64,000 nucleotides of DNA from NCBI RefSeq assembly GCF_963675975.1, contig NZ_OY780939.1, positions 1-64,000 of the forward strand. Reading direction: 5' to 3'. The stretch comes from Halarcobacter sp. GTDB taxonomy: Bacteria; Campylobacterota; Campylobacteria; Campylobacterales; Arcobacteraceae. Shown here in pieces: positions 37,955-43,925 of this stretch (position 1 is its first letter; every line of letters starts with the position of its first letter). The position numbers and the translations under genes were made by a program. Below the pieces are notes generated by a model. The model did not search any database. It was not told the DNA's origin and saw nothing but the letters and a program-made list of their open reading frames with translations.

Positions 37955-40900
37955 TTATACAATTTTTCTATTTCTAAAAGCCAATACAATAGTTATAAAA
38001 ACCACTAAAAGTGTAATCGGTACAAAAGGTGGTATTGGGATTGGGTCACCTGCTGCATAAGAGTGTAATCCAGCTAAATAATAGTTAACTCCAAAATAAG
38101 TCATCACAATAGAAGAATAAGCTACTAAAGATAAACTAGAAAAAATAAAATTAGAAGCTAAGCCTTTTATGTAGTGTAGGTGTAATATTACTGCATAAAT
38201 TAAAATAGATACTAAAGTCCAAGTCTCTTTTGGATCCCATCCCCAATATCTACCCCAAGATTCATTTGCCCAGATTCCACCTAAGAAGTTACCTATTACA
38301 AGTAAAACTAAACCTATTATCATAGACATTTCATTTATTCTTCTTGCTTCTTTTATAGAGATTTTCAAAGATTCTTGTTTTAAATCATTTTTATTTTTAT
38401 TAATAAATATAAAAAAGACTAGTGTTAAAAATCCTAAAATTGCACTAAGTGCTAAAAAAGCATAACTAGCTGTAATTACACTTACATGAATTGTTAACCA
38501 ATAAGATTTTAAAACAGGAGTTAAAGTAGTAATCTGAGGTTCTAACCATGATAAATGTGCTACAAAAAGGGTAATCCCTGATAACAATGATGTGGTAGCT
38601 AGTGCTAATATTGATTGTTTTGAAAAGATGATTCCTGCTAAAACAATAGCCCATGCTATATAAATCATAGATTCATATCCATTTGACCAAGGGGCATGAC
38701 CTGAAACATACCATCTTAATGCAAGTCCTGAAGTATGAACTATAAAACTTAGTATAAATATCACAAGAAAAAATTTTGATATTTTATTTAAAGATATCAT
38801 TGGTTTAAATATTTTTACAAATACAAAAGCCAATAAAACAACTCCTAAGATTAGATATACAGGAGTTAGTCTTTTAAAAATATTATATTTGTTAAAAAGT
38901 AATTCTGCTTTTATTTTCCATTCATTAGGGATAATATTAGCTGCATATTTTGTTTGATAGTTTATAATATTATCAAGGGCGATATTTGCTTTATCCCAAG
39001 AGGCTTTACCTTCATTTGCTTCTTTTAATGCAATAAAATAACTATCCATAAGATTTGCTATATCTTTTGCCTCTGTTTTATTTAAAGCACCAACTCCATC
39101 ATTTATAACTGATATTGCTAAAGTTGGGTCTAGCCATTTGTTGTTGTTATCATCAATTTTTGGAAATAGTTTTAGAAAAGCTCCTGAAAACAGATTATAG
39201 ATAATATTTAATCTTTCATCTACTTTTATAACATCCTTATCGTAAGTTGTTCTTTGTGAGGGTTTCTTTTTATTTATTATTTCTAAATCATCTTCTAATT
39301 TATATTTCCCTAAATTACCATATATATCATCAAATTTAAAGTATTTTGAATCACTATTTATATTTAAAACATTTTTCAATTTATCATTTTTTACACTAAT
39401 AATTGGAACTTTTTGCCAGGCTCTTGGATTTATAAGCATACTAATAAATAGTTGATTTGCATTTAATCCATATAAACTCTCTTTTCTCATCACTTTATTC
39501 ATAATCTCAATAGCTAAAGAATTAATAGGTTTGATTCTTCCTTGATAATCTTGAACTAATACTGCCCCTAATTTGTTTGCATGGTCTAAATCTATATTTG
39601 TGATAAGTTTCATATCAATATTTGAGTTTGTTTCTGCTTTTAAATCACTTGTAAATAGAAATACAAAACAGATAAGAAAAGCACTTGCAATATTTTTTAA
39701 TTCATATTTTGTATTTGCCAGTTTTCTAAATCTACCATTTTTCATAAAAAGACTAAAAATAAGCCCTGTAAATAATAAAAAGTAACCAATATATGTTGGT
39801 ATTACTCCTGGGTCTTTATTTACAGAAAGTATTGTTGCAGTTTCATTCATAGTGTATGAACTTTGAAAAAATTTATACCCTTTATAGTTTAGAGTATTGT
39901 TCATAGATATTAATTGCTCAAAAGTTATATCATCTTTTGTATCATATACTTTTACTAAACTAGAATAACTTGAAGGGGATTTAGAACCAGGATATCTTTC
40001 TAGATTAAAATCATTTAAATATAAAGAAAATGGCAACTCAATAATCTTTGCACCCCAAGATAGTTTTAGTGTTTTATCATCTAGCTTAATTGTTTTTTCA
40101 TAACCTTGATTTGAACCACCTTTTCCAAAAAGAGAGATCTCACTCTCTTTTCCTTTGTAAGTTAGTTTAGTAATCACGGCATTTAGTCTTTTATCTTTTT
40201 GAACAAGATTTTTATCCATACTTACAACTTGAACTTTCCCTGATGCTGCAAAATCTGGCGTTGCAAATCTCGTTTGTGCTACTATATAAATAACATCATC
40301 TCTTAAAGGTAAAACTTCATTTGCTTTTATAGTACCTTGCCCTACTCCATCCATAAAGTTGTATGTGATTGATACATTTGATTTAATATAAACTTGATTA
40401 TCTTTTGTTTCAAATAAAACTTTAGGTTTAGAGTTATCTTCAATCTTTTTATTTAAAGAAAAAGTAGTATATTTATCTGAGTATATTTTTGTATTTTGTA
40501 AATCTATACTTCTTGCTCCTGTTAAATCAGTAATAATAAGATTTACCATAGGTTTTCCATCTTTTACTGTTACAATTTTCTCTGCTGCATTTGGAACAAA
40601 ATTTTGAAATTTTAAATTTATATTTGAGTTAATATCTAAATCAAAATCTGTTTGAGAAAGTTCTGTCATTAATACTTTTGTATCTTTTTTAAGTATCTCT
40701 TTTCCATCTTTATTTAATAAAACAGCTTGAATATATTCATCATTTGAAAGCATTTTATTTTGTATAGTAAATTCAGGAATAGTCATCAAACCTTCATAAC
40801 CTAAATATCTAGTAAGAGCAGCTCCAACTAAGATAAATGCAAATGATATATGGATAAAAAAGATAAAAAACTTTTTGATTTTATACATTTTAAACCAAAT

Positions 40901-41095
40901 AATATTAGCTAATGAAGAGATTACAAGAATAAGCATAATAAGTTCAAACCAAGTTTTATTATATACAAAAGACCTTACAGCCAATGTACCATAATCATTT
41001 TCTATAAATGTAGCCACAGCACATGAAAAAGCGAAAAGAAGCATTAAAACTGTTGCAGTTTCAATTGATAGAATATTTTTTAGTAATTTTTTCAT
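37955..41095 (-). CDS. nrfI: Cytochrome c maturation protein CcsBA (NrfI/CcsA1 type)
   Basis: A 1046-residue fusion of ResB-like (N-terminal half, TM helices near residues 10-30, 50-70, 75-95 and about 430-450) and ResC/CcsA-like (C-terminal, about 700-1040) proteins; it exports heme and attaches it to CXXCH motifs in the periplasm. The tryptophan-rich WWD segment is WGRYWGWDPKETW (about residues 947-959), and heme-ligand histidines are seen in FIVHTSGLALRW and LTIHVSVITASYA. It lies downstream of nrfHA, the position of W. succinogenes NrfI, which is needed for heme attachment at the CX2CK site of NrfA. Which isoform it is rests on this context. Confidence 0.86.
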   Translation of the reverse strand: MKKLLKNILSIETATVLMLLFAFSCAVATFIENDYGTLAVRSFVYNKTWFELIMLILVISSLANIIWFKMYKIKKFFIFFIHISFAFILVGAALTRYLGYEGLMTIPEFTIQNKMLSNDEYIQAVLLNKDGKEILKKDTKVLMTELSQTDFDLDINSNINLKFQNFVPNAAEKIVTVKDGKPMVNLIITDLTGARSIDLQNTKIYSDKYTTFSLNKKIEDNSKPKVLFETKDNQVYIKSNVSITYNFMDGVGQGTIKANEVLPLRDDVIYIVAQTRFATPDFAASGKVQVVSMDKNLVQKDKRLNAVITKLTYKGKESEISLFGKGGSNQGYEKTIKLDDKTLKLSWGAKIIELPFSLYLNDFNLERYPGSKSPSSYSSLVKVYDTKDDITFEQLISMNNTLNYKGYKFFQSSYTMNETATILSVNKDPGVIPTYIGYFLLFTGLIFSLFMKNGRFRKLANTKYELKNIASAFLICFVFLFTSDLKAETNSNIDMKLITNIDLDHANKLGAVLVQDYQGRIKPINSLAIEIMNKVMRKESLYGLNANQLFISMLINPRAWQKVPIISVKNDKLKNVLNINSDSKYFKFDDIYGNLGKYKLEDDLEIINKKKPSQRTTYDKDVIKVDERLNIIYNLFSGAFLKLFPKIDDNNNKWLDPTLAISVINDGVGALNKTEAKDIANLMDSYFIALKEANEGKASWDKANIALDNIINYQTKYAANIIPNEWKIKAELLFNKYNIFKRLTPVYLILGVVLLAFVFVKIFKPMISLNKISKFFLVIFILSFIVHTSGLALRWYVSGHAPWSNGYESMIYIAWAIVLAGIIFSKQSILALATTSLLSGITLFVAHLSWLEPQITTLTPVLKSYWLTIHVSVITASYAFLALSAILGFLTLVFFIFINKNKNDLKQESLKISIKEARRINEMSMIIGLVLLVIGNFLGGIWANESWGRYWGWDPKETWTLVSILIYAVILHLHYIKGLASNFIFSSLSLVAYSSIVMTYFGVNYYLAGLHSYAAGDPIPIPPFVPITLLVVFITIVLAFRNRKIV

Positions 41096-41224: not shown

Positions 41225-42715
41225 TTAGTTATAAGAAGTTTTATCTTCTATACCCTCTGTTGATTTAGGGTTATAGATACCTTTTTTCTCAGCCTCTTTT
41301 TTCCATTCAATTAAAAGTCCACTTTTGAATTTTTTCTTATCATCTACAAGTTTTTCAAATGGTAAACCAATAATCTCTTGAGCTTTCTCTTTAGAAGTAG
41401 CTTCAGGTGCTTTATAATCAGCAGCTCCATGTTTAGCTAAGATTTTAGCTAATTTAATTCTAGCATTTCCAGCTTTTTCAATTGCTGTTGCTAAAACTCT
41501 TAAAGTCTCTTCAGGTGCATGGAAGAATGCTGGGTGTGATGCAACTGCATAATCCCATCTCCATTGTGCATGTCTGATATCTTTTAATACAGGTGCCATT
41601 TCTGCTTCACTTGCTCCAACTTCCCAAGCTTTTCCAGCTTCTAAGTGTGCAGCAGCTAATTGTTTCATAGCTTTTTTGTGTAACTCATCTTTTCTTTGTT
41701 TTTTCTCATTAATTGTTTTAAGTAATGAGTCTTCAGAAACTCTGTGACAAGTCATACAAGTATTTTCCATATTTTCCAATGGATTACCAATTTTATGATC
41801 TGTATATTTAACTCCACCTTCTCTTTTATAAGGCATGTGACAATCTGCACAAGAAACATTGTTTTTACCGTGTGCACCTGTTTTCCACATCTCATAACCT
41901 GGGTGTTGAGCTTTTAACATTGGAGTTTTAGAGATTTTGTGTGTCCAATCTTTGAAATCCATATTATCATAATATCTTTCCATATCATCAACTGATGTAC
42001 CTTCAGACCAAGGTAAAGTAACAACAGCCGCTTTTTTACCATCAGGAGTATCAGTTTTTTTGAAATAATATTCAACGTGACATTGTGCACAAACCATTGT
42101 TCTCATCTCTTGGTGAGTTGCATCAGCTAACGAAGTTTCACCATTTGATTGTAAAGCAGTATCTAAATACTTTCTATTTACTTGAAGCTCCATAGTTTCA
42201 GGATTATGACAATCTACACAACCAATTGGATTAATAATATCTGAACCATATTTTGCCCATTTACCAGTAAAGTACTCTAAGTCACCTTGCTCATTCATAA
42301 TTCTAGGAACATCAGGTGATTTACATGTCCAACATGCTGTTGGCATTGGTCCAGTTTTACCATCTACTGGTGCACCTGTTCTAAGAGTATTTCTATTATC
42401 TTCAATAGCATAGAAGTGACCTCTTGGAGCGTTATAGTCTTTTGCAAAACCATATCCTGCCCATAATACAACTAATTCAGGATATTTTTCTAACATATCC
42501 TCGATTTTATCACTTTGTTTAGTTTGTTTCCAAGAATCATATTCTCTTGGATAAAACTTTTTAAACTCTTCGTTTTTTGTTTCCCATTTGTCAATTTTTG
42601 GAACAGAATTTATAATTTTTTGTTCCTCTTTTTTCTCATTAATAGATGCAACTAATGCACTTAAACAGCCAATTGCTACTAATGAAGCTACAAGTAAGAC
42701 TTTAAACTTTTTCAT
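41225..42715 (-). CDS. nrfA: Cytochrome c nitrite reductase, pentaheme NrfA
   Basis: Periplasmic enzyme that reduces nitrite to ammonium with six electrons. The 496-residue protein has an N-terminal signal/anchor (about residues 5-25) and five heme motifs: the active-site CWTCK (128-132), CVDCH (166-170), CAQCH (209-213), CADCH (289-293) and CMTCH (320-324). The segment KAQHPGYEMW (about residues 268-277) carries the conserved Lys, Gln and His near the active site and calcium site. The CX2CK active-site heme is the classical form and needs a dedicated lyase, probably the adjacent ccsBA. A strong AAGGAAG site precedes the start. Works with NrfH encoded 13 bases upstream. Confidence 0.97.
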   Translation of the reverse strand: MKKFKVLLVASLVAIGCLSALVASINEKKEEQKIINSVPKIDKWETKNEEFKKFYPREYDSWKQTKQSDKIEDMLEKYPELVVLWAGYGFAKDYNAPRGHFYAIEDNRNTLRTGAPVDGKTGPMPTACWTCKSPDVPRIMNEQGDLEYFTGKWAKYGSDIINPIGCVDCHNPETMELQVNRKYLDTALQSNGETSLADATHQEMRTMVCAQCHVEYYFKKTDTPDGKKAAVVTLPWSEGTSVDDMERYYDNMDFKDWTHKISKTPMLKAQHPGYEMWKTGAHGKNNVSCADCHMPYKREGGVKYTDHKIGNPLENMENTCMTCHRVSEDSLLKTINEKKQRKDELHKKAMKQLAAAHLEAGKAWEVGASEAEMAPVLKDIRHAQWRWDYAVASHPAFFHAPEETLRVLATAIEKAGNARIKLAKILAKHGAADYKAPEATSKEKAQEIIGLPFEKLVDDKKKFKSGLLIEWKKEAEKKGIYNPKSTEGIEDKTSYN

Positions 42716-42728
42716 CTTTCTTTCCTTC

Positions 42729-43265
42729 TTATTTCATTCTTTCTTTAACACCTATACTATAAGGAGTTGATGTTAAACTTCTAACTTTGCCATGAGGAGT
42801 AAACTTATGACATTCCCAACATTTTCGATCAGCTTTTAAACTATCTTCTTCTGAACCATGGTAATTATTTGCATTTAGACCCATTTGAGATGTTAAATCT
42901 CCATGACATCTAATACAGTTTGCTTGCACTCTGTCTGCACCATCTTCACTTATGTCAATATTATTTTCATAAGTGTTCAAGGTAAATGCAACTGAGTGAT
43001 TCCAACCATCGATTGCTTTAGCTTTATACTTAGCAACCACATCACCAACTGGCAAGTGACAATCCACACATGTAGCAACATTCTTATGAGAACTTTTTGA
43101 CCATGTTGCATATGCAGAATTCATCGTATGACAATTGATACAGGCTTTAGGATCACTTGACAGGTATGACAACATTTTTGATGCATGCACTGTATAAGCA
43201 AATAAACCAACAGCAATAAGAAAAGCTAAAATTGATCCATAGACTACAATTTTTTCTCTTTTCAT
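42729..43265 (-). CDS. nrfH: Tetraheme quinol dehydrogenase NrfH
   Basis: Membrane-anchored NapC/NirT-type cytochrome that oxidises menaquinol and passes electrons to NrfA. The 178-residue protein has one N-terminal TM helix (about residues 7-28) and four CXXCH motifs: CINCH (42-46, followed by a methionine at 48, the ligand of heme 1 in known NrfH), CVDCH (66-70), CIRCH (117-121) and CWECH (149-153). The start at 43265 has AAAGGA six bases upstream; a longer reading from 43286 adds seven residues without a comparable site. First gene of nrfH-nrfA-ccsBA. Confidence 0.95.
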   Translation of the reverse strand: MKREKIVVYGSILAFLIAVGLFAYTVHASKMLSYLSSDPKACINCHTMNSAYATWSKSSHKNVATCVDCHLPVGDVVAKYKAKAIDGWNHSVAFTLNTYENNIDISEDGADRVQANCIRCHGDLTSQMGLNANNYHGSEEDSLKADRKCWECHKFTPHGKVRSLTSTPYSIGVKERMK

Positions 43266-43290
43266 TCTTAATCCTTTAAATTGCATTAGA

Positions 43291-43296
43291 AGTATA
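43291..43296 (-). promoter_or_regulatory. Predicted -10 box for nrfH
   Basis: TATACT on the minus strand. A start near 43284 would give a 19-base leader before the nrfH ATG and place the activator dyad at about -41.5. Confidence 0.5.
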
Positions 43297-43318
43297 AATT
43301 AATTTTTAGTTTAAATCC

Positions 43319-43332
43319 TTGACCTATGTCAA
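43319..43332 (-). promoter_or_regulatory. CRP/FNR-family activator site upstream of nrfH
   Basis: Perfect dyad TTGAC-CTAT-GTCAA, the TTGAN-N4-NTCAA form bound by CRP/FNR-family regulators. Its centre is about 41.5 bases upstream of the predicted start, the class II activator position. Nss-type regulators control nrf genes in W. succinogenes and C. jejuni. Confidence 0.6.
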
Positions 43333-43603
43333 GAATGAATATTTAGTCATACTATAAAATGGTACTTTCTTATTAATTTAAATTTTTCGATTAAAATATC
43401 ATTTAATTTAATTATGTGAAATTTATAGTAAAAGTTATTTTACTTTATTGAAAATAAAGTTTTTTAGGTAGTTTTAGAATTTTATTTATAAGTTTTTATT
43501 ATATTATTTTAATATATAAAAAATTGATACGTATATTGATAAAAAAAATTATAAATATTTCAAAATTTGTAAATTTATTGATAGTTTGTATTTAAAAGAT
43601 GAA

Positions 43604-43632
43604 TTATAAGTGTCAAAATTTGACACTTATAA
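43604..43632 (-). terminator. Hairpin after the YciI-family gene
   Basis: Fourteen-base perfect arms TTATAAGTGTCAAA/TTTGACACTTATAA around one central base, 9 bases past the stop. On the minus strand followed by TTCATCTTTT. Best read as a terminator; the TTTGACAC core could also bind a regulator. Confidence 0.5.
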
Positions 43633-43640
43633 ATTAGAAT

Positions 43641-43925
43641 TTATCTTGGTAGTAATTTAACTGGAACGATTTGGAACTCTTCCATATTCCATACACCATT
43701 TACTACATATGGCTCATTTTCTAACCATTCATTAATCGCTTCATCATTTTCAAAATCAACAAATAGTGTAGAACCTACCATTTGGTCATCTTCTATAAGA
43801 GCACCAGCATTTATAATTTTTCCTTCTGCTATCATTTTTTTAGCACCCTCAACATGAGCGTCTCTTACTTCTAGTCTTTTATCTAAAGCACCTTCATTGT
43901 CATAAGCTATTACAAGGTATTGCAT
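43641..43925 (-). CDS. YciI family protein
   Basis: A 94-residue ferredoxin-like-fold protein of the YciI family. The family His is in the R-D-A-H segment (residues 21-24), and the C-terminal half has EDDQMVGSTLFVDFENDEAINEW and YVVNGVWNMEEFQIVP, typical of the family. Members are small cytoplasmic dimers with a proposed enzymatic or degradative role, but no firm function. Transcribed alone, with a hairpin directly after the stop. Confidence 0.86.
   Translation of the reverse strand: MQYLVIAYDNEGALDKRLEVRDAHVEGAKKMIAEGKIINAGALIEDDQMVGSTLFVDFENDEAINEWLENEPYVVNGVWNMEEFQIVPVKLLPR

Follow-up and report, generated by a model that had tools for sequence, protein, structure and literature searches.

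FNR class II promoters, such as that of Escherichia coli nrfA, have a box centred at −41.5 and a −10 box, and no −35 box. In the Campylobacterota, TTGA-N6-TCAA is the consensus cited for Nss-type regulators (PMC11539149), and the reported targets of NssA, NssB and NssC in Wolinella succinogenes are nap, nrf and nos genes (PMC6682613, PMC8139620). Exact boxes of this form begin 49, 48 and 48 bp before the predicted napA, norE and nosB starts of Nitrosophilus labii (PMC11539149). Related rules come from Rodionov et al. 2005 (PMC1274295), in which HcpR proteins with the consensus TTGACnnnnGTCAA have Ser or Pro at position 180, and NssR of Campylobacter jejuni has the box TTAACnnnnGTTAA with A180/Q181.

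Here, we describe a 14-bp dyad upstream of nrfH in the window, that is, the whole stretch of 64,000 nucleotides of Halarcobacter sp. DNA that was analysed. We infer, at a probability of roughly 80%, that this dyad is the class II operator of nrfHA, bound by an Nss/Dnr-like CRP/FNR activator of a nitrogen-oxide regulon, and that a protein called here regulator B is most likely its main regulator; the inducing signal would be nitrate and/or NO.

The nrfH promoter and its orthologues

The box TTGACATAGGTCAA, recognised from sequence and from orthologue conservation, lies on the minus strand at 43319..43332 in the direction of nrfH (its plus-strand letters are TTGACCTATGTCAA). Exactly 22 bp downstream of it, we found the −10 box TATACT (43291..43296, minus strand), which places the predicted transcription start 7 bases further on, at 43284 (minus strand). 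Relative to this start, the box begins 48 bp upstream and the dyad centre (43325.5) falls at −41.5; hence, the position proposed in the preliminary description is confirmed. The hexamer located 17 bp before the −10 box, AGGATT, has no resemblance to a −35 box.

The gene behind this promoter, nrfH, encodes the small subunit of cytochrome c nitrite reductase (42729..43265, minus strand; TIGR03153, 162 bits, cut-off 134). Its longest reading frame starts at the ATG at 43286-43284; since this codon coincides with the predicted +1, we moved the start of nrfH to 43265. The ATG at 43265-43263 is likely the true start, as judged from its place behind the ribosome-binding site AAAGGA (43272..43277, minus strand; similar in most family relatives compared) and from the similar leader that relatives carry. 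The next gene, nrfA, encodes the ammonia-forming cytochrome c nitrite reductase (41225..42715, minus strand; NF008339, 707 bits, cut-off 595), and its product has one CXXCK haem motif (CWTCK). Likely the third gene of an nrfHAI operon is that of a 1046-aa CcsBA/NrfI-like cytochrome c maturation protein (37955..41095, minus strand), read from its translation, which contains the motif WGWDPKETW that we take to be a mark of such proteins. On the other side of the promoter, the inverted repeat AAGTGTCAAAATTTGACACTT (window 43610-43632) follows a 94-aa minus-strand reading frame (43641-43925) and is probably the terminator of that frame.

An NrfH search gave matches at E ≤0.001 in 32 of 104 family genomes, and we examined the upstream regions of the 22 with at least 67% identity (the second nrfH copy of genome G067 lies outside these 22). 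The preliminary description would have been overturned by absence of the dyad in close relatives; we found TTGAY-N4-RTCAA exactly in 18 of the 22, and 17 of these 18 have TATAMT at a gap of 22 bp. In G003, the hexamer is TACAAT and stands one base further from the dyad; in G060, TATAAT lies at gap 22 behind a degenerate box; and no dyad was seen upstream of nrfH in G013, G014 and G031. A separate scan for NrfA gave 80 loci, of which eight were examined (L047-L053 and L067); these are partly from the same genomes as the 22, so they were not added. The dyad is present in five of the eight: a Halarcobacter MAG (L048), Malaciobacter halophilus (L051), a Campylobacteraceae MAG (L050), and L049 and L052, two nrfHA copies of one Campylobacterales assembly. 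An Arcobacter MAG (L047) has a degenerate dyad, and no exact dyad was found at L053 or in a Sulfurospirillum MAG (L067).

The site is also kept beyond the family. From a class sample of 249 genomes, we examined loci L285-L303, except L302 and L303 (motif not located), and set aside L304-L311 as well as the many weaker NrfH matches. Of the 17 nrfH upstream regions located in other families, 13 have an exact dyad, two have one mismatch and two have no box; since relatives are not independent, these and the family counts overstate the number of events. TANNNT is found at gap 22 in 11 of the 15 upstream regions with a box and at other gaps (21 or 23 among them) in the remaining four, and five loci of the class sample that belong to another family or other families carry the identical 14-mer TTGACATAGGTCAA. 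The near-invariant 22-bp spacing, in orthologues as in the regulon below, strongly supports the class II position that had been suggested, relative to a predicted start. A dimeric Nss/Dnr-like CRP/FNR activator would bind TTGAY-N4-RTCAA centred at −41.5, covering the −35 region, and would help RNA polymerase use the TATACT −10 box of nrfHA.

The regulon and its candidate regulators

In this genome, TTGAY-N4-RTCAA (inner C or T) occurs at 45 places compared to 34 for the control; hence, most of these places are background. Better evidence than the bare dyad count is the box followed by 22 bp and TANNNT, which we found 18 times compared to twice for the reversed control. The looser TTGA-N6-TCAA with the same gap and hexamer gave 25 compared to 16, a weak excess, and the Y/R form was used instead. 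By our own reading-frame calls, 18 of the 45 places are intergenic and 27 intragenic. TANNNT stands at gap 22 in 16 of the 36 directions of the intergenic places (each other gap from 10 to 39 has 0-5) and in 2 of the 54 directions of the intragenic places. Twelve intergenic places have gap 22 in at least one direction, and six have no TANNNT there; counted among these six is the box of an NnrS gene (171492), which has CATACT at gap 22.

The twelve places comprise nrfH (window 43319-43332) and, with genes assigned by family search, napA (3031702), moaA (3030562), the hydrogenase small subunit (1906854) and hemerythrin (2999909). The box at 3030160 stands before ygbA (YgbA by family search) and regulator B, which are back to back. 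At 1558457, the box precedes the hydroxylamine reductase gene hcp (family search) and, in the other direction, an 822-aa gene; at 1331692, it faces the gene of regulator C on one side and an ABC-permease-like gene on the other, with an NnrS gene third in the latter's run. Hence, gap-22 boxes sit before two CRP/FNR genes, those of B and C. One cluster holds three sites, before a gene with a sub-threshold DUF2249 match (1319273), a run including another ygbA (1321801) and a small cytochrome c read from sequence (1324875). The last place (2835965) is at the 3′ end of a gene with no gene in that direction and is probably due to chance. With it, the far side of the nrfH dyad makes 2 of the 16 gap-22 directions that are probably incidental: the TAAAAT found there at 22 bp was set aside, as TANNNT occurs at this position only here and in the closest relative (TAAGAT), and in none of 16 others.

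Across the 104 family genomes, the box with 22 bp and TANNNT was found 1031 times compared to 141 for the reversed control, and 99 of the 104 genomes are above control. The nrfH box would be part of a nitrogen-oxide respiration and stress regulon with one common geometry.

We considered four CRP/FNR-shaped proteins of this genome, A, B, C and D. None of the four could be named specifically from NCBIfam, where all matches fell far below cut-off, and a PDB sequence search of A, B and C gave only general CRP/FNR and cyclic-nucleotide-binding relatives. The genome also has a sub-threshold HTH match at 643411 and two long cNMP-domain proteins. Regulator B (C1:3029466-3030125, also given as 3029463-3030173; minus strand) is encoded near napA (3031786), ygbA and moaA and has a box on its own promoter. 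Its recognition helix is QPETLSR, and HIQPETLSR is found in all 30 best-scoring B loci. Aligned to CRP, B has P180/E181, the combination expected of HcpR1 proteins (Ser or Pro at 180, Glu at 181); hence, by the published rules (PMC1274295), B fits the window box. In this genome, B contains only two cysteines (94 and 141), which cannot make up the four-cysteine cluster of FNR, so B is not FNR proper; this judgement leaves out 10 of the 30 B orthologues, whose N-terminal parts were cut by the start rule. B is probably NssA-like, its orthology to NssA being suggested by its place near nap. Most likely, B is the best candidate for the main regulator of the nrfH box, given its place near napA, the box on its own promoter and its QPETLSR helix.

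A B-like protein (E <1e-50) is encoded in 87 of the 104 family genomes; box, gap and TANNNT were found 955 times compared to 120 for the control in these 87, and 76 times compared to 21 in the 17 genomes without B. In 12 of the 22 nrfH genomes, no more than 25 kb separate B from nrfH; in this genome, the two are not near each other. The nrfH dyad is missing from G014 and G031, both of which encode B. Among genomes without a B orthologue, the box is enriched in G083 (7 vs 0), G086 (15 vs 2), G087 (14 vs 4) and G103 (8 vs 1), and G013 has lost the nrfH dyad yet has 5 boxes elsewhere compared to 0. Hence, B is not the sole reader of the box. Paralogues with the PETLSR helix exist and probably read the same box as B. 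In six genomes without a strong relative of B or C, no enrichment was found (4 vs 6); adding a seventh such genome, G018 (54% complete; 4 vs 1), gives 8 vs 7.

The enrichment in several genomes without B also bears on the reading that the main activator at nrfH is not B but a paralogue, A (654560-655195) or C (C1:1331740-1332375, L020). All three proteins have an xTLSR recognition helix, and C, like B, has a box on its own promoter. However, C of this genome has Ala at the Glu181 position expected for TTGA boxes, though some orthologues have Glu, and no respiration gene was recognised by eye among the translations in the 12 kb around A. We consider a leading role for A or C rather unlikely. 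They may also use the box beside B, as in Wolinella, where NssA, NssB and NssC reportedly have the same reductases as targets.

The helix of C itself reads APATLSR, with Ala at the usual Glu position as in L230 and L231 and Glu in other orthologues; judging from these residues, the target box of C may have shifted.

Directly behind B is the gene of a membrane protein with a PilJ domain and no kinase (C1:3028472-3029461, L018:6473-7462, minus strand). At 29 of the 30 best-scoring B loci, the gene after B, on its strand, encodes a PilJ-type protein, mostly about 330 aa long; at L207, the sequence ends too early to judge the partner. The distance from B to the PilJ gene is −4 to +2 bases in 27 loci, and the called start is about 75 bases on in L216 and L217. 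In the protein of this genome, a strong and a weaker hydrophobic segment (from ~8 and ~171) flank the PilJ domain, and the C-terminal part is charged. Pfam identified PilJ in all 14 members scanned; the remaining matches were weak and scattered, and neither a kinase nor a chemotaxis domain was found.

The published nitrate N-box, [IVL]-[ND]-x-A-G-x-Q-R-M-L-[ST]-Q (PMC6381276), is matched exactly in the PilJ protein of this genome (VNIAGKQRMLTQ). A script matched it in 25 of the 30 B loci, and L213, missed by the filter of the script, also has it; in L216, L222 and L225, it is off by one residue. In the PDB, the protein matched the nitrate-binding McpN domain weakly (E 0.028) and PilJ better (1.3e-5). 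Since Pseudomonas PilJ, without the N-box, is reported not to bind nitrate (PMC6381276), the reading of the B-linked protein as nitrate-binding rests on the N-box. Searches for PilJ together with nitrate in Campylobacter, Epsilonproteobacteria or Arcobacter showed no such pair among the matches listed, as judged from titles and the starts of abstracts. A 474-aa protein near the hemerythrin gene (C1:2996933, L139:1434-2858, minus strand) has a near-N-box, its first 50 residues ending in ISGKQR, and might be another sensor of the nitrate type.

Upstream of the nrfH box is a second palindrome, TGACTAAATATTCA (43336..43349, minus strand; centre about −58.5), one mismatch from TGAAT-N4-ATTCA. In the 22 family nrfH upstream regions, TGAAT-N4-ATTCA occurs exactly in 12 and with at most one mismatch in 16, compared to means of 0.04 and 0.9 (maximum 4) in 200 shuffled sets, which keep base composition only; the motif was first noticed on the same sequences as those counted. 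Where both elements are present (15 sequences), the palindrome begins 17-20 bp before the box in 11 and 29-30 bp before it in four, two spacing classes about one helical turn apart. G013, which has lost its CRP/FNR box, still has TGAAT-N4-ATTCA. Scanning the window together with 0.22 Mb from elsewhere in this genome gave a single exact copy, at 1906836, which precedes the hydrogenase operon box by 18 bp.

Combining these observations, we tentatively propose a nitrate-signalling pair, although we put it at less than even odds. The kinase-less PilJ protein would bind nitrate through its periplasmic domain, and its cytoplasmic, probably coiled-coil tail would contact B directly, without a histidine kinase. 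B, told of nitrate, would switch on nap and nrfHA. Both nrfH and the hydrogenase would also be regulated by a second factor, which would bind TGAAT-N4-ATTCA just upstream, in two classes whose spacings differ by one helical turn.

Inner bases of the half-sites and chance expectation

In the preliminary description, the outer bases of the dyad were said to depart from the FNR consensus, and TTGAC in place of TTGAT was taken as a possible sign of a separate regulator. In fact, the dyad departs from TTGAT at the inner base of each half-site, and the idea of a distinct regulator is unsupported, as the inner base alternates between C and T in orthologues and the other regulon boxes of this genome mix the two. 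At the 18 family nrfH dyads, we found C/G in six, T/G in nine, C/A in two and T/A in one, so that hybrids make up 11 of the 18. The same positions of orthologous nrfH promoters carry TTGAC/GTCAA, TTGAT/GTCAA, TTGAC/ATCAA and TTGAT/ATCAA, and even the two nrfHA copies of one assembly (L049 and L052) have boxes that differ in their inner bases.

In favour of a regulator that reads TTGAC-N4-GTCAA for a small regulon of its own, apart from the reader of TTGAT-N4-ATCAA, left C and right G co-occur beyond expectation (28 CG, 24 CA, 20 TG and 68 TA; odds ratio 4.0, p 0.0002) at 140 sites with box, 22 bp and TANNNT from genomes G001-G015 of the 104, with both-direction pairs counted once; these sites are all from one genus (g2), and orthologous sites are counted repeatedly. 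CG is also the commonest form among the exact class-level nrfH boxes (9 of 13). However, 44 of the 140 sites are hybrids, as are most of the family nrfH boxes, the C and T forms have the common 22-bp geometry and the same kind of genes, and TTGAC/GTCAA has already been published as the HcpR consensus (PMC1274295). Hence, we regard a separate TTGAC regulator as improbable.

On the nrfH strand, the left half of the dyad reads TTGACA, which might be taken for an ordinary sigma-70 −35 box within an accidental palindrome. This reading is contradicted by spacing, as 30 bp, and not the usual 17 or so, separate TTGACA from the −10 box, and orthologues keep both half-sites and the 22-bp gap; we give it hardly any weight.

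TTGAC-N4-GTCAA occurs once in the window, compared to 0.06 expected, and 6 of 100 shuffles contained one. In the 3.27-Mb genome, there are five exact places compared to one for the reversed pattern; with one mismatch allowed, the bare motif is at background level genome-wide (75 vs 73). The five are upstream of nrfH, napA (3031702) and a ThiF-family gene (2012428; TANNNT at gap 21, not 22) and inside two genes, the latter probably by chance. A −10-like hexamer at gap 22 is found at two of the five, nrfH and napA. With two of five exact places intragenic and no excess at one mismatch, a chance palindrome in an AT-rich upstream region might be considered, but the site and its spacing are kept in orthologues of this family and others, which contradicts this reading and leaves its probability negligible.

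Comparison with described systems

According to a 2019 review, genomes of Campylobacterota so far lack ArcA, FNR and NarP orthologues, and that of Arcobacter butzleri contains no homologue of FNR/CRP-family regulators (PMC6682613). Compared to these statements of the review, 87 of 104 family genomes encode the conserved CRP/FNR protein B, a count for the family as a whole rather than for A. butzleri, and the box with class II geometry is widespread in the family. Since the pairing of B and an N-box protein is conserved, the nitrate part is open to a direct test, and this putative B-linked sensor pair is the part that merits work at the bench. Searches for Arcobacter with NssR/Fnr or with Crp/Fnr/nap showed no study of this regulon among the matches listed, as judged from titles and the starts of abstracts, with few subscription journals covered. 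A full-text search for TTGAC-N4-GTCAA led to a single paper, on an Anr box of Pseudomonas.

Of the described regulators, FNR differs from B in its four-cysteine cluster, which the two cysteines of B cannot supply. NssR of C. jejuni has box geometry and superfamily in common with the system here, and the third base of its box differs from that of the nrfH box, TTGAC (PMC1274295). Sites of the NssR type, TTAAC-N4-GTTAA, were set aside as a regulon of this genome: there are 10 compared to 3 control sites, 7 of the 10 are intragenic and none has TANNNT at gap 22. HcpR of the HcpR1 branch, from delta-proteobacteria and cyanobacteria, has the consensus TTGACnnnnGTCAA with Ser or Pro at 180 (PMC1274295); here, B has Pro, hcp carries the box and the consensus is exact at nrfH and napA. 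In contrast to the described HcpR regulons, which centre on hcp, the box set here extends to nap, nrf, moaA, nnrS and further genes, with an inner base that is variable across the regulon and between orthologues.

The Nss system is like the one here in its CRP/FNR family, its occurrence in Campylobacterota, its nap, nrf and nos targets and its box start, 48-49 bp before the predicted starts compared to 48 bp here (PMC6682613, PMC11539149). As in an Nss-type regulon, a CRP/FNR regulator, B, is linked to nap, and TTGA-N6-TCAA boxes are found upstream of nap and nrf; the presumed likeness of B to the Nss proteins is drawn from its gene place near nap. Since the Nss boxes and the Wolinella targets have already been published, the nrfH site belongs to a known kind. 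It is real and conserved and, in all likelihood, an ordinary operator of the class II type in a CRP/FNR regulon resembling that of Nss.
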